DNA of 34,818 bases from contig CAIMHT010000020.1 in assembly GCA_903840935.1 (NCBI GenBank), positions 1 through 34,818 of the forward strand. Reading direction: 5' to 3'. The stretch is from an uncultured Chlorobiaceae bacterium (GTDB taxonomy: Bacteria > Bacteroidota > Chlorobiia > Chlorobiales > Chlorobiaceae). Under the pieces are notes generated by a model. It was not told where the DNA came from and did not search any database. It saw only the letters and a list, made by a program, of their open reading frames with translations. Shown one piece after another: positions 89 through 9,672 of this stretch (position 1 is its first letter; every line of letters starts with the position of its first letter). The position numbers and the translations under genes are program-made.

Positions 89-565
89 TTATTCTCCCCG
101 GTGTATCGCTACCGCGCCAGAACGGGCAAGCTCTTTTATACCGTACGGCTTGAAGATATCGATAGTTGTGTTGATCTTGTCCGGAGAACCGATGACCTCA
201 ATAGTAATGGATTTTTGTTTTATATCCACGACTTTTCCTTTAAAAACATTGATCAGCTCAAAAATCTCATGCTGCACCGTTTTGCTGAGCTTCAGGGTCA
301 TCAGGAGCAACTCCCGCTCAACATGCGGCTGACGGGTCAGATCGGTAACCTTGATGGTATCGACCAGCCGGTTCAACTGCTTGAGCACCTGGCCGATAAT
401 CTGGTCTTCACCCCTTGTCACAATGGTCATGCGTGAGATTTCCGTGTCCTCAGTTTCGCCGATGGAGATACTCTCGAGGTTGAACCCCCGGGCGCTGAAC
501 ATGGCCGCAACCCGGTTAAGGGAGCCAAACTTGTTTTCAACCAGTACGGATATAATATGTTTCAT
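89..565 (-). CDS. ilvN: acetolactate synthase small (regulatory) subunit
   Basis: This 158-residue protein is the regulatory subunit of acetohydroxyacid synthase. It activates the catalytic subunit IlvB and mediates feedback inhibition by valine. The N-terminal ACT domain (about residues 3-75) opens with ISVLVENKFGSLNRVAAMFS and continues with RGFNLESISIG, both typical of IlvN/IlvH. The C-terminal half (about 80-158, ending IKELARSGAVAIHRG) is the ALS_ss_C domain. Length is normal for the family. The gene lies just upstream of ilvC, but its partner ilvB is about 5.5 kb further upstream instead of adjacent, so it probably needs its own promoter. Confidence 0.96.
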   Translation of the reverse strand: MKHIISVLVENKFGSLNRVAAMFSARGFNLESISIGETEDTEISRMTIVTRGEDQIIGQVLKQLNRLVDTIKVTDLTRQPHVERELLLMTLKLSKTVQHEIFELINVFKGKVVDIKQKSITIEVIGSPDKINTTIDIFKPYGIKELARSGAVAIHRGE

Positions 566-835: not shown

Positions 836-1681
836 ATGACCATTTCGCCAGTAAACTTCATATTGATACGCGGTGGCGCATTTACGATGGGCAGCCCGGT
901 CGATGAGGCTGGTCGGGATGATTACCGGTTATTTGGTCTCAAAGCCAATGAAAACCGGCATCAGGTGATCGTGAGCGACTTTTTTATGGGCAAATATGCC
1001 GTCACCGTTGCCGACTTCAGGGAATTTGTTGAAGCCACAGGGTACAGAAGTGATGCTGAAAAAGGAGGCTTCAGCGTCATGTTCATCGATGGTAACCTGG
1101 AAGACCGGCATGGAGTAAACTGGCGTCATGGAGTAACAGGTCTGGAGCGGCCTGAGGCCGAAGAGAACCATCCGGTTGTGCATGTGAGCTGGAATGATGC
1201 GGTAGCCTACTGCCTATGGATGACGGAAAAATCAGAAAAGCGGTTCCGGTTGCCTACTGAAGCGGAGTGGGAGTATGCCTGCCGTGCAGGAAGCCTGACC
1301 GCGTTCAACACGGGTGAAAACCTGACGACCGCAGAGGCAAACTATAACGGAAACTATCCTTGGAACAACAACGAGAAAGGGTGTTTTCTGGGGAACACGG
1401 TTGCTGTTGACAGTTTTGCGCCCAATGCGTGGGGGCTTTACAACATGCATGGTAACGTCTGGGAGTGGTGCAGTGACTGGCTTGGAGGGAACTATTATGA
1501 CGAATGCAAGGAGGATGGGAGAGCTGTCAATCCTGCAGGGCCTGTAACCGGTTCTTTCCGCGTGATGCGTGGCGGGAGCTGGAGCTTCAATGCAGGACGC
1601 TGCCGGTCGGCTTATCGCGGCCACAGCGTTCCAGGTCTGCGATACGGCAGCGTCGGCTTTCGCCTGATCTTTGTTGATTAG
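836..1681 (+). CDS. SUMF1/FGE-fold (C-type-lectin-like) protein with a DGR-style variable C-terminus
   Basis: This 281-residue protein has the formylglycine-generating-enzyme/sulfatase-modifying-factor fold. Visible landmarks are FTMGSPVDE (16-24), VVHVSWNDAVAYCLW (114-128), RLPTEAEWEYACR (138-150), NMHGNVWEWCSDW (203-215) and the C-terminal RVMRGGSWSFNAGRCRSAYR (242-261) ending GFRL. True FGE uses a paired catalytic cysteine motif; here only C256 remains and the partner position is Phe/Asn, so oxidase activity is unlikely. The last ~35 residues look like the variable region of diversity-generating retroelement targets: S250, F251, R255, G262, H263, S264, V265, Y270, G271, S272 and V273 are encoded by NNY codons that could derive from AAY. 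The upstream 270 nt hold no other gene, and no signal peptide is evident. No sulfatase or reverse transcriptase is nearby. Probable role: ligand or surface binding; the partner is unknown. Confidence 0.85.
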   Translation: MTISPVNFILIRGGAFTMGSPVDEAGRDDYRLFGLKANENRHQVIVSDFFMGKYAVTVADFREFVEATGYRSDAEKGGFSVMFIDGNLEDRHGVNWRHGVTGLERPEAEENHPVVHVSWNDAVAYCLWMTEKSEKRFRLPTEAEWEYACRAGSLTAFNTGENLTTAEANYNGNYPWNNNEKGCFLGNTVAVDSFAPNAWGLYNMHGNVWEWCSDWLGGNYYDECKEDGRAVNPAGPVTGSFRVMRGGSWSFNAGRCRSAYRGHSVPGLRYGSVGFRLIFVD

Positions 1682-1693
1682 CCAGTTTGTAGC

Positions 1694-4600
1694 TCACACC
1701 GTTTCCGGTTTTTGAAGCAACTCCGAATTGAGGATAGTATAAACGATTGTCGTCAGCGCTTTGGGGTTAAACGGTTTCTGGATAAAGTTAAGTTTACTGT
1801 CAAGTATCGTGTTGTGGTTAATAATGTCGGCAGTGTAACCTGAAATAAAGAGAATTTTAATCTCAGGACGCATGGCAAGAAGCCTTTTTGAAAGCTCGGC
1901 CCCATTCATTTCCGGCATAATGACATCGGTCACCAACAGGTCAATTGTTCCTTGGTATTGTTCTGCCATTTTGATGGCATCCAGGGCTTTCTCGAATGCC
2001 AGCACGGTATAACCGTTCCGTTCAAGGATGACTTTGCAGAGTTTGAGAATGCCAGGCTCATCCTCCACAAGCAGGATTGTCTGATGGCCTTTCTGGATTA
2101 ATTGCTCCTGTTGTCTGTCCAGATTCGTTGTTGCCTCTGCCTCATGCTTGGGCAGATAAATCGTGATGGTTGTTCCTTTTCCCTGTTCGCTCAGGCACTC
2201 AATATGGCCATTGTTCTGTTTGACAATTCCGTAGACGGTCGAAAGACCAAGGCCAGTGCCTTTTCCCTTCTCTTTTGTGGTGAAAAAAGGCTCAAAAATA
2301 TGTTGAAGATTGTTTTGCGCAATACCACATCCATCATCATGTACAGAAAGTGACACATAGCCTGCGGATAGACCCTCAGTTTTATGGGTTTCACTGGCGA
2401 TTTCCGCCAGAGAGCGGCATTGGTTTTCGATAGTGATGCTGCCATTGCCGGTTATTGCATCACGGGCATTGATACAGAGATTTAAAAGAATCTGGTCGAT
2501 CTGCGATGGATCAATTTTGATATGGCAGTTTTTGCATTTTGGAATCCATATCAGTGTGATATTTTCACCGATGATACGCCGCAACATTGGAAGCATCTCC
2601 GTAATAGCTATGCTCAGCTCAACAATTTTTGGAGAGATAACCTGTTTCCGGGCAAAAGCAAGCAGTTGCCGGGTCAGATTGGCAGAATGGGTTGCCGCCT
2701 TGCGGATAGCATCGTAATTGGCATAGGTTTTCATGGTTGGGTCACTCTCTTCCATGGCAATTTCAGTATGACCAAGAATAATGGTAAGCATATTGTTGAA
2801 ATCGTGGGCTATACCTCCAGCCAGTCGCCCGACCATCTCCATTTTCTGGGATTGCTGAAGCTGAGCATCAAGTTTCACTCTCTCTTCTTCGATTTGTCGG
2901 TGTTCCGTGATATTTATGCTGGTGCCAATAATTCTGAAAATAGTGCCGTTTTCATTATAAACAGGGTTCAGCACGGTTTCCCACAAAGAGTTTTTGCCAT
3001 GAAACATTATAGACTCTTCATAACGAATTGACTTGTTTTCACGGACACAATCGTCATAGTGATAAATAACCGATTTGGCAATAGCAGGAGGAAAAAGTTG
3101 TTCAGGTGTTTGTCCGTCCAGTTTCTCACTGGTGGTTCCCGATATTTGCTCACTGAGCGGGTTAATGGATGAATAGGAGTAAGAGCCATCAGCATCAATA
3201 TCGACAACAAAAATGGCAAAATTGACCTGATTATAGATGCTCTTGAGAAACTGTTTGCTTTCTATTAACTCCTGCTCATATTTTTTACGATCTGAAATAT
3301 CACGAATCAATCCGATATATCCGATAAATCCCTGATTCTCATAATATTGCACATGAATTTCTGCATAAAAGATTGAGCCGTCTTTTTTTCTGTAGTGCAG
3401 TTCGAGCACTTCATCCTTCTGGTTCATCAAACCCTCCTGAAATGAACTGACTGCTCTCTCAATGTCCTCTTCAGCCAGAAACTCGATAAAGGGATGGCCA
3501 ATCACCTCATCAGTTTTATAGCCAGCAATAGTTTCAACAGAAGGTGAGACGTAGGTTGTAACTCCACTTTGATCCGTTATAAAAACTATCTCGGAAATTT
3601 GTTCAGCAATAGAACGAAACAGTCCCTCACTTGCCAGCAATGCCTGGTCAGCCTTTTTGTGCTCAGTGATGTCGTTCATAATCGAATACAGTAGTTCTCT
3701 TTCATGAAATGGAATAGAACAACTGAAAACTTCGACATCGCGGCTTGATCCATCAGCCATACGATGGATTTGACACAGTATGCCATCATGTGGATCTATG
3801 GTGATCTGCTGGATCGTCATCTGTTTGAGCGTTTCAGACGGCCACTGGTAAAAGTTTACAGCCGCTTGATTGGCATCAATGATTCTGCCAGTATCGGGAT
3901 CAGTAACGAGCATGACAGATGAATGCTTTTCAAACAATATCCTGAAGCGATTTTCGCTCTCCTTGAGGGCATCTTCCTTCTGTTTTTGATCGGTGATGTC
4001 AATCATGATACCGACATATCGAATTATTTTACCATCGGAATCCGTTAATGGAGTTCCTTTTGACATAAGCCATCGTTCAGTTCTCTCTGCATTACGTATA
4101 CGCCAGGTACAGTTGTATTCACTGCCTTTTTTTTTGGCTTCACTGATGGCTTGTTCAACTTTTTCCCTGTCTTCCGGGACAATGGTGTTTATCCAGTTTT
4201 CACGGGTAAGCTCACAGCTATAAGGTTTGAGTCCGCAGAGATGCCATACTTCATCTGACCAGATAATGGTATTTGTGCTCATCTCATATTCCCATGTACC
4301 CGCACTTGTTCCTGCCAGAATAAGAGACATCCGTTCATTGGTGGCAACAAGCTTCTCTTGAAAGACCTTGCGTTTGGTAATATCGATAATCGTTCCTATG
4401 TAACGTACCGTTTTGCCATTGCTATTACGCAAGGGTTTACCGCGGGATACCAGCCAGTGGATGGTATCGTCGGGATAACAGACGCGATATTTGATGTACA
4501 ACCCGGTTTCGCTTTTTGCTGCCTCAGTATAAGCGTTGATGACAGACTCACGATCCTCAGGATGAATGAGACTTGCCAGGAGTTGGACGGAGGGATTTTC

Positions 4601-5143
4601 GTTGTTGCTTGACTTCAGACCGTATAAAGGCCATATCTCGTCAGACCAGATATATTCATTCGTTGTCAAATCCCATTCCCAGACACCGGCACGCGCGGCT
4701 TCCAATGCCTGATTAAATTTTGCTATCCATTTGTCGAGCTTGGCTTCTATTCGTTTTGGCCCTGAAATATCTGCAATAGTGATGAACAACCGGGAAATCG
4801 TCTTTTCCGGTGACAGGACAGGATTAATGGTGATTTTCCAAATCAGATCCTCTTTTCCATTTTCAAAACTTATTCGTTTTCCAGTAGAGAGAACTTCTGC
4901 AATCTTTTCCCTGTAGTGCATCACGAGTTCCGGCAATTGCAGTACGGTTGTAATCAGATCATAGATACTTGCTCCGATGCACTCCTCTCGAGAGAGGCAG
5001 AAACGTGCGGCAAACATGGTGTTGGCACTAAAAATTATGCCGTTTGGGTCGATGAGCAGAACTTCCTCAGGAAGGGATTCCAGCAATGCAAAAACCGGAT
5101 CGTCGGCCAGATTGCTGTCGGTACAGAAATTTGTTGAGGGCAT
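1694..5143 (-). CDS. multi-PAS hybrid sensor histidine kinase
   Basis: This is a 1149-residue, apparently soluble hybrid kinase. About six PAS modules run from residue 15 to 755, several with PAC ends (IIDITKRK near 252, IDITDQKQ near 381, MNDITEHKK near 489, IRDISDRKK near 613, INITEHRQ near 743). A HisKA domain follows (phosphoacceptor H780 in GGIAHDFNN). The HATPase domain has N892 in the N box, DDGCG at 936-940 and GTGLGLS at 962-968. The C-terminal receiver has D1073 as phosphoacceptor, S1101 and K1123. No transmembrane helix was seen, so it likely senses a cytoplasmic cue such as redox state or a small ligand. It is convergent with the SUMF1-fold gene (12-nt gap) and lies downstream of the lipoprotein. 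It is paralogous to the kinase at 29565-32933. Signal and output are unknown. Confidence 0.93.
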   Translation of the reverse strand: MPSTNFCTDSNLADDPVFALLESLPEEVLLIDPNGIIFSANTMFAARFCLSREECIGASIYDLITTVLQLPELVMHYREKIAEVLSTGKRISFENGKEDLIWKITINPVLSPEKTISRLFITIADISGPKRIEAKLDKWIAKFNQALEAARAGVWEWDLTTNEYIWSDEIWPLYGLKSSNNENPSVQLLASLIHPEDRESVINAYTEAAKSETGLYIKYRVCYPDDTIHWLVSRGKPLRNSNGKTVRYIGTIIDITKRKVFQEKLVATNERMSLILAGTSAGTWEYEMSTNTIIWSDEVWHLCGLKPYSCELTRENWINTIVPEDREKVEQAISEAKKKGSEYNCTWRIRNAERTERWLMSKGTPLTDSDGKIIRYVGIMIDITDQKQKEDALKESENRFRILFEKHSSVMLVTDPDTGRIIDANQAAVNFYQWPSETLKQMTIQQITIDPHDGILCQIHRMADGSSRDVEVFSCSIPFHERELLYSIMNDITEHKKADQALLASEGLFRSIAEQISEIVFITDQSGVTTYVSPSVETIAGYKTDEVIGHPFIEFLAEEDIERAVSSFQEGLMNQKDEVLELHYRKKDGSIFYAEIHVQYYENQGFIGYIGLIRDISDRKKYEQELIESKQFLKSIYNQVNFAIFVVDIDADGSYSYSSINPLSEQISGTTSEKLDGQTPEQLFPPAIAKSVIYHYDDCVRENKSIRYEESIMFHGKNSLWETVLNPVYNENGTIFRIIGTSINITEHRQIEEERVKLDAQLQQSQKMEMVGRLAGGIAHDFNNMLTIILGHTEIAMEESDPTMKTYANYDAIRKAATHSANLTRQLLAFARKQVISPKIVELSIAITEMLPMLRRIIGENITLIWIPKCKNCHIKIDPSQIDQILLNLCINARDAITGNGSITIENQCRSLAEIASETHKTEGLSAGYVSLSVHDDGCGIAQNNLQHIFEPFFTTKEKGKGTGLGLSTVYGIVKQNNGHIECLSEQGKGTTITIYLPKHEAEATTNLDRQQEQLIQKGHQTILLVEDEPGILKLCKVILERNGYTVLAFEKALDAIKMAEQYQGTIDLLVTDVIMPEMNGAELSKRLLAMRPEIKILFISGYTADIINHNTILDSKLNFIQKPFNPKALTTIVYTILNSELLQKPETV

Positions 5144-6135: not shown

Positions 6136-7857
6136 TCAGACCATGGTTTTGGGGTTCAGCCGTTCAAGGAGCATGTCTGAAATTGAGCCTCCCGCTGGTA
6201 CCATGGGGAAGACCATATCTTTTTTGACTACCCTGAAGTCGACAAGAACCGGTCCTTCGTTCCAGGCGAGGGCCTCTGTGATTGCCTTTCTGGCACTCTC
6301 GGGGTTGTCGGCCATGAGTGCCTTGCAGCCGAAGGCTTCAGCGACTTTGACAAAGTCGGGGTTGCTGTCGCCAAGATCGGTAAAGGAGTATTTTTCTTTG
6401 TGGAAGAGCTCCTGCCACTGGCGCACCATGCCGAGATAGCTGTTGTTGATCAAAAAGATCTTTATGGGGATTTTGGCGTGCACTGCGGTAACAAGCTCCT
6501 GGATATTCATCATGAGCCCCCCGTCGCCGCAGAAGAGGAGGACTGGTTTGTCGGTGACGCCGAAGGCTGCGCCGATGGCTGCGGGAAGGCCGTAGCCCAT
6601 GGTGCCGAGTCCACCGCTGGTGATGATGGAGCGGGGATTGATGAAGGTGTAGAACTGCGATGTCCACATCTGGTGCTGACCGACGTCGGTGACAACAACC
6701 GCGTTCCCTTGGGTCTGTTTTGAAACCTCGTCAATCACAAATTCAGTTCTGAGCTTGTCGTCATCGTTTTTGTAGGTCAGCGGACACTTCTGGCGCCATG
6801 CGTCGATCTGGGCAAGCCAGGGTGCACGGTTTTCAGCGGTGCCAACCGTCTCTTCGATGAGTGAGGCGAGAAAGTGTTTTGCATCGCCGACAATCGGCAA
6901 GTCGACTTTGATGTTTTTGTCGACGTTGGTTGGGTCAATGTCATTATGGATTTTGTATGCCTGCGTCGCAAAGGTAGAAGTTTTTCCGGTTACCCGGTCG
7001 TCAAAGCGTGCACCAACGGCTATGAGAAGGTCACAGGCATTGACGGCCTGGTTGGCCCAGTAGGTGCCGTGCATGCCGAGCATTCCCATGCTGAGTGGAT
7101 GGTTTCCAGGAAAGGCGCCAAGTCCCTGGAGGGTCATAGTGACTGGTATGTTATGCTTTATGGCGAAGGCGCGGAGCTCTTCGGATGCCTCTGCACTGAT
7201 GACGCCGCCACCAATATAGAGAAGGGGGCGTTTTGCCTGTGCAATTTTATGCGCGGCCTTTTGAACCTGGTTGATGTGGCATTTTAGGGTTGGTTTGAAT
7301 CCCCGGATATCAACCGTCTCGGGCCACTGAAAAATGCAGGAGGCGTTGAGGATATCTTTGGGCATATCAACCAGAACAGGGCCTGGCCGGCCGTTTGTTG
7401 CAAGGAAAAATGCCTTGCGGATGGTTAAGGCCAGTTCCTTGACATCCTTGACAAGAAAGTTGTGTTTGGTTATCGGGCGTGTGATTCCAATAATATCGGC
7501 CTCCTGAAAAGCGTCATTGCCAATGAGTGAGCTGGGTACCTGTCCGGTAAAGACAACCATCGGAGAAGAGTCCATGTAGGCGTTTGCAATGCCGGTGACG
7601 GTGTTTGTTGCTCCGGGTCCGGAGGTGACCAGAACAATACCTGGCTTTCCTGTGGCGCGGGCATAGCCTTCGGCCATGTGGGTCGCGCCTTGTTCATGAC
7701 GGACAAGGATGTGCTGGATGTCTTCGACGTCGTAGAGTGTTTCGTAGACTTTCAGCAGCGATCCGCCAGGATAGCCGAAAATATATTCAACATTTTCACG
7801 CCGCAGACATTCAAAAAATATCTCTGAGCCATTGAGTGTTTGACCTGATGCTTGCAT
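6136..7857 (-). CDS. ilvB: acetolactate synthase large (catalytic) subunit
   Basis: This is the thiamine-diphosphate enzyme that condenses pyruvate with pyruvate or 2-ketobutyrate, the first committed step of branched-chain amino acid synthesis. The N-terminal domain carries the catalytic Glu in VRHEQGATHMAEGYARA. The central FAD/DHAP-like domain follows (LQGLGAFPGNHPLSMGMLGM). The C-terminal domain has the ThDP-binding GDG...NN motif (GDGGLMMNIQE through FLINN). Length of 573 residues is normal. I chose the ATG at 7857, 7 nt after the ilvD stop. A TTG at 7878 overlapping ilvD would add seven residues. The layout implies cotranscription with ilvD. Its regulatory partner ilvN is displaced by about 5.5 kb. 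Confidence 0.96.
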   Translation of the reverse strand: MQASGQTLNGSEIFFECLRRENVEYIFGYPGGSLLKVYETLYDVEDIQHILVRHEQGATHMAEGYARATGKPGIVLVTSGPGATNTVTGIANAYMDSSPMVVFTGQVPSSLIGNDAFQEADIIGITRPITKHNFLVKDVKELALTIRKAFFLATNGRPGPVLVDMPKDILNASCIFQWPETVDIRGFKPTLKCHINQVQKAAHKIAQAKRPLLYIGGGVISAEASEELRAFAIKHNIPVTMTLQGLGAFPGNHPLSMGMLGMHGTYWANQAVNACDLLIAVGARFDDRVTGKTSTFATQAYKIHNDIDPTNVDKNIKVDLPIVGDAKHFLASLIEETVGTAENRAPWLAQIDAWRQKCPLTYKNDDDKLRTEFVIDEVSKQTQGNAVVVTDVGQHQMWTSQFYTFINPRSIITSGGLGTMGYGLPAAIGAAFGVTDKPVLLFCGDGGLMMNIQELVTAVHAKIPIKIFLINNSYLGMVRQWQELFHKEKYSFTDLGDSNPDFVKVAEAFGCKALMADNPESARKAITEALAWNEGPVLVDFRVVKKDMVFPMVPAGGSISDMLLERLNPKTMV

Positions 7858-7864
7858 AGCTGCG

Positions 7865-9562
7865 TTATTTGAGTTCAAGAGGAACAGGGTTTTTCAGGAT
7901 TGCGCCGGTATTGGCCGAGGTGACCATTTGTGCATACCTGGCCAGATATCCTTTTTTGATTTTCGGTTCAAATGGTTTCAGCAGTGCCAGCCGCTCATTG
8001 ATGAGCTGGTCGGTCAGGCTGACCGAAATGCTTCTGCCGGGAATATCGATAGTAATCATGTCGCCGTTTTGGAGGATGGCAATCGGGCCGCGCTCGGCGG
8101 CTTCGGGGGAGATGTGTCCGATGCAGGCCCCCCTTGATCCTCCGGAGAATCGTCCGTCGGTGATAAGTGCAACCGATTCGCCGAGACCGCGGCCCATGAT
8201 GGCACTGGTGGGAGAGAGCATTTCCGGCATTCCGGGTCCTCCCTTCGGTCCCTCGTAGCGGATCACCACCACGTCGCCGGCTTTGACATCATCACCCATA
8301 ATGCCTTTGATGGCGTCATCCTGGCAGTCATAAATTTTTGCCGGGCCGGTGTGCTTCATCATTTCAGGGGCAACTGCGCCGGTTTTGACCACAGCTCCCT
8401 GCGGAGCAAGATTTCCGAAAAGGACGGCAAGGCCGCCGGTCAGGGAGTATGGATCTTCTATGCTTCTGATGACGGTGCTGTCAAGAACCTCTGCATCGGC
8501 AATATTTTCGCCAAGTGTTTTTCCGGTTACGGTGAGGGCGGAGAGGTTGAGAAGTCCGTCAATTTTGCTGAGTTCTTTCAGGATTGCCGATACGCCGCCA
8601 GCCCGATCGACATCTTCTATGTGGACTGCCATCGTTGCGGGGCTGACTTTACAGATATAGGGTGTTCTGGCTGAAAGGGCGTTCAGTTCTGAAAAATCGA
8701 AGTCCAACTCAGCTTCATTGGCAATGGCGAGGGTGTGCAGGATAGTGTTCGTGCTGCCGCCCATTGCAAAGTCGAGGGCAAAAGCGTTCAGCAGCGAACT
8801 GCGGGTGAGAATGTCTCGCGGCTTGATATCCTTCTTTACCAGATCAATAATCCGGCGGGATGCCTCCCTGACCAGATCGTTGCGCCGGGGGTCGATGGCA
8901 AGAATGGTGCCGTTTCCGGGCAGGGCAAAGCCAAGCGCTTCGCTGAGGCAGTTCATTGAGTTGGCGGTGAACATGCCGGAACAGGAACCGCAACCTGGGC
9001 AGGCGCTCTCTTCGATGGTCTCAAGTTCCTCGTCGTTGATTTTTCCGGCGCTGTACTGGCCGACCGCTTCGAAGACTGAAATGAGGTCAACGGTTTTGCC
9101 TGCGGGGGTGTGGCCAGCTTTCATGGGGCCGCCGGAGACAAAGATGACCGGGATGTTGATGCGCAATGCTGCCATCATCATGCCAGGGGTGATTTTGTCG
9201 CAGTTCGGAATGCAGACCAGTCCGTCGAGGCGGTGGGCTTCGGCGACGGTTTCGACGCTGTCGGCAATCAGTTCACGGCTTGCAAGGGAGTAGCGCATGC
9301 CGATATGACCCATCGCAATGCCGTCGCAGACACCGATGGTATTGAATTCAAAGGGAACTCCTCCGGCTTTGCGAACTTCCTCTTTTGCGATGCGGCCCAG
9401 CTCCTGGAGGTGGGAGTGGCCAGGGATCAATTCGTTGTAGGAGTTGCATATCCCGATAAAGGGCTTTTTGAAGTCGCTGTTTGAAACAATGGAACCTGTG
9501 GCTTTAAGAAGGCTGCGGTGTGGCGCTTTTTCAAACCCTGTTTTGACAGTATCAGATCTCAT
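7865..9562 (-). CDS. ilvD: dihydroxy-acid dehydratase
   Basis: IlvD is the iron-sulfur dehydratase that converts dihydroxyisovalerate and dihydroxymethylvalerate to the 2-keto acids. The product begins [20 protein letters not shown], the standard IlvD start. Cluster and metal ligands are visible in [25 protein letters not shown] and [11 protein letters not shown]. The C-terminal [19 protein letters not shown] signature is also present. At 565 residues it fits the shorter bacterial IlvD class. A GTG at 9622 would add 20 residues with no family similarity, so the ATG at 9562 is preferred. The gene is first in the minus-strand operon and almost abuts ilvB. The 3' end is TAA at 7865. Confidence 0.97.
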
Positions 9563-9672
9563 GGCAGTAATTTTTTTGGCTGTTAACGAAGATATCTCCG
9601 GGGCTGCCGATCCCGAAGCCACAGTAAAGATACGATTGAAAAGAGAAAAATGGACTTGGGAGCGGTTTTCGT

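Follow-up and report, generated by a model that had tools for sequence, protein, structure and literature searches.

A probable former target of a diversity-generating retroelement with a conserved variable region in an uncultured Chlorobiaceae bacterium

Results and discussion

The gene at positions 836–1681 of the window is most probably a decommissioned former target of a diversity-generating retroelement (DGR), with a variable region (VR) that is now under purifying selection. The window, i.e., the whole stretch of DNA that was analysed, is contig C20 (34,818 bases) of a 2.0-Mb draft assembly of an uncultured Chlorobiaceae bacterium (100 contigs, 85.7% complete). The VR is homologous to those of the DGRs of the genus, the flank behind the stop codon is decayed, the VR residues are conserved between species with turnover at silent sites, and in two species the gene coexists with a DGR reverse transcriptase. 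The sequence-only reading had taken the end of this gene for a remote DGR target. By descent this is supported by the paralogous targets and the decayed flank; as a description of a live hypervariable region it is contradicted by the conserved orthologues.

The gene and its locus

The following features of the window are used below.

89–565, minus strand: acetolactate synthase small subunit (ilvN-like; PF10369, PF22629), the same neighbour in two orthologous loci
836–1681, plus strand: stand-alone FGE-sulfatase/C-type-lectin (CLec) gene, 281 amino acids (open reading frame; PF03781 at residues 7–278)
1568–1663, plus strand: probable former VR, codons 245 (RGG) to 276 (GFR), recognised by hypervariability in paralogues and alignment with templates, conserved in orthologues
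within 1583–1651, plus strand: the 15 VR positions (codons 250–252, 254, 255, 260, 262–265, 267, 268, 270–272), hypervariable in paralogues
1682–1702, plus strand: DGR-target 3' flank in decayed form, the 21 bases behind the stop codon, compared with the consensus of 64 intact flanks
1694–5143, minus strand: PAS hybrid histidine kinase, convergent with the CLec gene, its stop lying inside the old flank
6136–7878, minus strand: acetolactate synthase large subunit, anchoring the locus in orthologues
7865–9622, minus strand: dihydroxy-acid dehydratase, anchoring the locus in orthologues

The product of 836–1681 matched the Pfam FGE-sulfatase family with an E-value of 1.2e-62, and the frame has no N-terminal effector domain. 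The AlphaFold2 model of the 281-residue protein had a mean pLDDT of 91.4. Foldseek aligned it with FGE structures at a TMq of 0.80 and with Treponema denticola variable protein 1 (2y3c) at 0.69. The gene has the CLec-type scaffold with a C-terminal variable region homologous to that of known DGR targets. In the alignment with human FGE (the numbering 336/341 is the same in the mutant titles of the structure listing), F251 occupies the place of Cys336 and C256 that of Cys341. One of the two catalytic cysteines is present, and the pair is incomplete, as had been read from the sequence; F251 was found in five of five orthologues too.

Wherever an orthologous contig was long enough, the ilv neighbourhood was the same. 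In genomes G023 and G011, the order was as in the window: ilvB, a small ORF (in G023 as fragments only), kinase, CLec, and ilvN. The CLec contig of G033 carried ilvD and ilvB and gave no kinase match; in G025 the small ORF was directly beside CLec, and the contig of G009 held fragments. Since the orthologues share this neighbourhood, the CLec gene has probably resided among the ilv genes since before the species split. The kinase was full-length at two of the five orthologous loci, matched by a 46-residue remnant at one and without a match at two, and the CLec gene has probably outlived it in at least two species.

Conservation of the VR in orthologues

Five orthologues of the window protein were found, with identities of 84–86%; the next relatives reached at most 67% (search of 61 genomes, then of 65 genomes of the genus). 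The sequence-only reading had expected present-day hypervariability, and this expectation failed: the 15 VR codons were nearly unchanged in the five orthologues and differed almost only at silent sites. Over the six species, 2 amino-acid changes against at least 16 silent ones were placed on the tree, a silent excess with p 7e-10 against the 80% non-silent expectation; the body of the gene had 107 amino-acid changes among 277 base changes. The pooled dN/dS was 0.04 for the 15 VR codons (chosen post hoc, from variability among relatives) and 0.16 for the body. The dS inside the VR was 0.82, so that the VR identity cannot stem from recent transfer or gene conversion. The opposite outcome named in advance, variation spread evenly among strains, does not fit either, as amino-acid variation was almost absent. 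The comparison is one between species, with one strain of the window species, and all genomes are drafts, mostly MAGs.

DGRs and their targets in sister species

A DGR reverse transcriptase sharing at least 64% identity with the G013:C4 enzyme across more than 200 residues was present in 20 of the 65 genomes of the genus. The enzymes of the sister species carry the motifs IGNLTSQ and YMDD. The best match among solved structures was 8ub7 (E 1.3e-39), which is titled just "Reverse transcriptase" and which we take to be the Bordetella phage DGR enzyme. The reverse transcriptase is adjoined by an AAC-rich template encoding NNNAENCRSAxRNNNTPDNRNNN or similar (nine templates), and FGE/CLec targets share the contig with both. 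In all three cassettes examined, an ORF with an HRDC domain was located just before the reverse transcriptase, at the position that Avd occupies in other DGRs:

L084, 8656–9165: HRDC-domain ORF
L083, 3277–3777: HRDC-domain ORF
L085, 5446–5928: HRDC-domain ORF

A search for Avd with PF05635 gave no match; as the control genomes gave none either, this result is uninformative. Of 13 targets with a template on the same contig, 11 differed from it only at template adenines (5–18 of 24–29), and the other two had 1 and 5 further changes at other bases. The window protein and these targets are paralogues, with about 55–67% identity. Their variable region aligns codon for codon with the C-terminal segment of the window gene, and the same 15 codons are hypervariable among paralogues (2.1–3.0 bits each, 25 relatives). 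The likeness of the segment to a variable region, first seen in the window alone, is therefore one of homology to the VRs of real DGR targets of the same genus. A different DGR of the genus was observed at L090 (G027:C30), with a template near 2901 and a target upstream on the contig.

Block layout and adenine content

The blocks on which the sequence-only reading had been based are present: RGGSW at codons 245–249, CRSAYR at 256–261, and GFRL at 274–277. Its list of intervening codons was accurate for those that it named (AGC 250, TTC 251, CGC 255, GGC 262, CAC 263, AGC 264, GTT 265, GGT 267, TAC 270, GGC 271, AGC 272, and GTC 273) and incomplete, AAT 252, GGA 254, TAT 260, and CTG 268 having been omitted. 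Adenine is indeed scarce, with 17 of 121 bases at 1560–1680 (14.0%) compared to 25.4% in 836–1559; an adenine content as low was found in 1.9% of all 121-base windows of the same strand. The majority consensus of 30 FGE-type proteins of several phyla reads RGGSWxxxAxxCRSAxRxxxxPxxRxxxxGFRLV. The RGGSW/CRSAxR/GFRL layout is an ordinary signature of the FGE/CLec family and, taken alone, is no evidence for a DGR.

Compared with the template of G011:C28, the VR of the window gene was changed at 19 of 27 adenines and at 13 of 69 other bases (p 4.8e-6). The same skew towards adenine, with 11 changes at other bases, was shown by three FGE genes from other phyla: L250 from Desulfatirhabdium, L217 from a Planctomycetaceae MAG, and L220 from an Acidobacteria MAG. 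The pattern of codons derivable from AAC or AAT by changes of adenine is thus there as claimed, but it does not discriminate, since FGE genes of other phyla pass the test about equally. We rejected the adenine test as proof of a DGR. The control consisted of 29 FGE homologues from a genome scan, among them three Chlorobiaceae genes near templates (L209, L211, L212), and other controls may include targets as well. The constraint of the FGE family itself puts variable loops at the AAC positions of the template. For the reading of genomes in general, an FGE/CLec layout with scarce adenine does not show an active DGR.

The 3' flank

The sequence TCAGTTGGCAGCTCATTCCGG... follows the stop codon in 64 of the 108 paralogues with a readable flank, and templates have a different flank in its place. 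The window gene is followed by CCAGTTTGTAGCTCACACCGT, which matches 15 of the 21 consensus bases (shuffling test, p about 1e-5). Of the 2582 other stop trinucleotides in the window, not one reached 13. The local score of the window flank was 13, compared to at least 20 in the 64 intact flanks, and the flank is therefore a degraded one. Among the orthologues, agreement was 14/21 in G011, 13/21 in G023, 9/21 in G025, 6/21 in G009, and 4/21 in G033; for three of the six orthologues the likeness to the flank was not significant (p 0.05, 0.43, 0.83). Other groups of conserved genes keep different remnants (19/21 on contig C33 of the same assembly, 15/21 at L150).

A perfect 5-base inverted repeat, GCTCA/TGAGC, was found in 41 of the 64 intact flanks and in none of the 44 degraded ones. 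Any inverted repeat of at least 5 bases occurred in 54 of 64 intact flanks; when each flank was shuffled once, 23 of 64 had one. Neither the window flank nor the three intact flanks examined folded better than their shuffles. With folding at chance level, a hairpin is not claimed, and we use the term flank instead. Retrohoming in phage BPP-1 depends on a short stretch downstream of the VR (PMC3240598). By its position and by analogy with this phage, the flank may be the homing element of this DGR family; the requirement in BPP-1 also makes it plausible that loss of the flank is the switch that ends diversification.

Two groups of paralogues

We compared 109 paralogues from 36 genomes. The sample is not random, having been drawn from a ranking by similarity to the window protein; it includes most matches that reached residue 270 and had a retrievable sequence; duplicate loci (L034, L037, L041), second matches on one gene end, and matches ending before residue 270 were dropped. 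When each gene was scored by its highest VR identity to any gene from a different genome, the distribution was bimodal, with 30 genes at 0.67–1.00 and 79 genes at 0.53 or below. All 30 genes with a VR shared across species had a degraded flank, compared to 14 of 78 others (p 2.6e-16). The splits (0.6 for VR identity, 18/20 for flank score) were set after the scores had been seen; as the flank cut-off was raised from 10 to 22, the counts moved from 19/30 vs. 9/78 to 30/30 vs. 29/78. The 14 genes with a degraded flank and no partner of the same VR fit singletons and could equally be exceptions. For pairs from different genomes with bodies at least 90% alike, mean VR identity was 0.16 (0–0.33, n = 12) with intact flanks and 0.92 (0.80–1.00, n = 16) with degraded flanks.

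The 30 genes with conserved VRs formed eight groups of 2–6 species and one looser pair, the window gene belonging to group A. The dN/dS of the VR was at or below that of the body in groups A, B, D, E, F, and G. In group H it was 0.30 vs. 0.22 for the body, and in group C it was 0.89, above the body value, from 8 against 2 pooled differences. Stand-alone frames of fewer than 400 residues made up 28 of 30 conserved-VR genes and 30 of 68 others (p 1.9e-6; frame length was missing for 11 of the 109 genes). A body tree was built for the 105 of 109 genes that were long enough; its root is not fixed, and 32 of 102 branches are weak. On it the label of intact or degraded flank changed 16 times, at least five of these changes being forced by strong branches, so that the tree does not prove for each node that frozen genes are nested among active targets.

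Fourteen of the 30 conserved-VR genes were in genomes with a DGR reverse transcriptase. Two of these genomes, G023 (99% complete) and G011 (97%), hold the orthologue of the window gene together with an open DGR reverse transcriptase and its template. A frozen gene in a genome with this enzyme means that absence of the enzyme is not what keeps the gene constant; the protection probably acts in cis.

Reverse transcriptases and further copies in the host genome

As the sequence-only reading had stated, no reverse transcriptase of the DGR type is present within the window. The genome-wide search that it had proposed, for a template and a DGR reverse transcriptase, found neither in the 85.7% complete assembly: the template DNA of G011:C28 matched only the VRs of four FGE genes (E < 0.01), and the DGR reverse transcriptase query gave a single weak match (E 3.7e-5). 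PF00078 (RVT_1) had five matches, on contigs C18 and C41, the readable ones with the motif QGG[IV]ISP of the group II intron type. These contigs (L001–L005) carry several group II intron-type reverse transcriptase frames, some of them broken, which adjoin one another on C18.

Besides the window gene, three FGE/CLec copies were located in the assembly:

L082, contig C40, 2532–4415: 628-residue frame ending in CLec, with an intact DGR flank
L080, contig C33, 8341–9312: second frozen gene, group G
L081, contig C17, 3427–4177: further FGE/CLec copy over two overlapping frames, flank degraded

The C40 gene differs from the G011:C28 template at 18 of 27 adenines and at 2 of 69 other bases. Judged from its sequence, it is this genome's strongest candidate for a target of recent diversification, and its intact flank with nearly pure adenine changes speaks for recent DGR activity in the host lineage. 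The VR residues of the C33 gene are identical in G081 and have two differences in G019. The C17 copy is probably broken by a frameshift. Between G033:C63 and G009:C219, the bodies are 98% and the VRs 13% alike, and neither assembly yielded a close DGR reverse transcriptase. Such divergence makes a missing reverse transcriptase in drafts a weak argument; a draft genome without the enzyme does not show that its DGR is inactive.

Proposed history and alternative explanations

The ancestor of the window gene would have encoded a variable protein of the CLec type, with its diversity generated by a DGR like those found in the sister species. One copy, among the ilv genes, would have lost its functional 3' homing flank, and mutagenic cDNA would no longer have been copied into it. 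The residues that the binding surface had at that moment would then have been held by purifying selection through the divergence of the species. We infer that it was the loss of the flank that caused the freezing, and the fixed residues would bind a particular ligand. The case suggests that a binding site that arose by random diversification can become a permanent bacterial gene.

The main competitor, which we regard as unlikely, is that the gene is an FGE/CLec paralogue that was never diversified, either a stable counterpart of the targets or the ancestor from which they were recruited. It would account for a layout that occurs throughout the FGE family and for an adenine test that unrelated FGE genes also pass, the protein tree leaves the root unfixed, and DiGReF takes such paralogues for conserved "ancestor" genes (PMC3521204). 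It does not explain why a remnant of the non-coding target flank follows the window gene and two of its orthologues, or why other frozen groups hold other remnants (those of C33 and L150). The labels alternate on the body tree, and repeated gain of a 21-base flank is less likely than its loss.

A far smaller probability is given to a live remote target, served in trans by a reverse transcriptase encoded in the 14% of the genome that is missing from the assembly. The incomplete assembly, the fresh-looking C40 target with its intact flank, and the diverged VRs of the G033/G009 pair would allow for it. Between species it is contradicted by VR residues that stayed constant over six species at the dN/dS given above; the flank is degraded, and in two species with a DGR reverse transcriptase the orthologue was left untouched. 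Slightly less probable still, and highly improbable in itself, is a working formylglycine-generating enzyme or another FGE-fold enzyme with a C-terminus conserved for catalysis. The fold, the overall match, and the conservation of the segment among orthologues agree with it, but phenylalanine replaces the first catalytic cysteine in the window protein and all five orthologues, the same positions are hypervariable in close paralogues, and all NCBIfam equivalogs of the FGE fold scored far below their cut-offs (best GldK, 109.7 vs. 350). A decommissioned target remains the preferred explanation.

Relation to known systems

DGRs are usually studied as engines of change, and the frozen genes concern what becomes of their products. 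We are evenly divided on the broader proposal that the DGRs of the genus work as a factory of permanent genes, in which targets repeatedly lose the flank, leave the diversified pool while diversification by the DGR continues at other sites of the genome, and keep their binding surface as stand-alone genes through the divergence of species (eight groups and one pair). If this were true, stand-alone CLec genes would be a heritable record of binding specificity once found by random search. The fate of good DGR variants becomes testable through the ligands of the frozen proteins and through the question of whether loss of the 3' flank alone stops homing. No report of cross-species conservation of former DGR VRs with flank decay was found in the literature searched, which mostly excluded subscription papers.

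Among green sulfur bacteria, DGRs are recorded in DiGReF for Chlorobium phaeobacteroides DSM 266 and Pelodictyon phaeoclathratiforme BU-1 (PMC3521204). With the green sulfur DGR proteins of the FGE-sulfatase/CLec fold, the window gene shares the family, the C-terminal VR, the multi-gene target set, and the reverse transcriptase and template of the genus; it differs by a VR that is constant between species, by the degraded flank, and by the lack of a detected template or reverse transcriptase in its own assembly. Because of their decayed target flanks and fixed VRs, several stable paralogues look like descendants of targets, unlike the ancestor reading of DiGReF.

A related case is all3226 of Nostoc sp. 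PCC 7120, which PMC7517822 describes as a target paralogue with remnant homology between template and variable region (TR-VR) and no nearby reverse transcriptase; the same source proposes for cyanobacteria that favourable variants may become conserved when the DGR components are removed. The window gene likewise has remnant TR-VR homology and no reverse transcriptase nearby. The suggestion from Nostoc comes from one gene in one genome, whereas the present case comprises six species whose orthologues show silent turnover, together with flank decay and no fewer than eight parallel groups.

Human and Streptomyces FGE (2q17, 8aru) have the same fold as the window protein (TMq about 0.8), which differs from them by the loss of one of the two catalytic cysteines. 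The 2y3c structure is presumably TvpA of a Treponema denticola DGR. It has the same CLec/FGE fold and carries its variable surface in the same C-terminal segment, TvpA being a DGR target and the window gene probably a former one.
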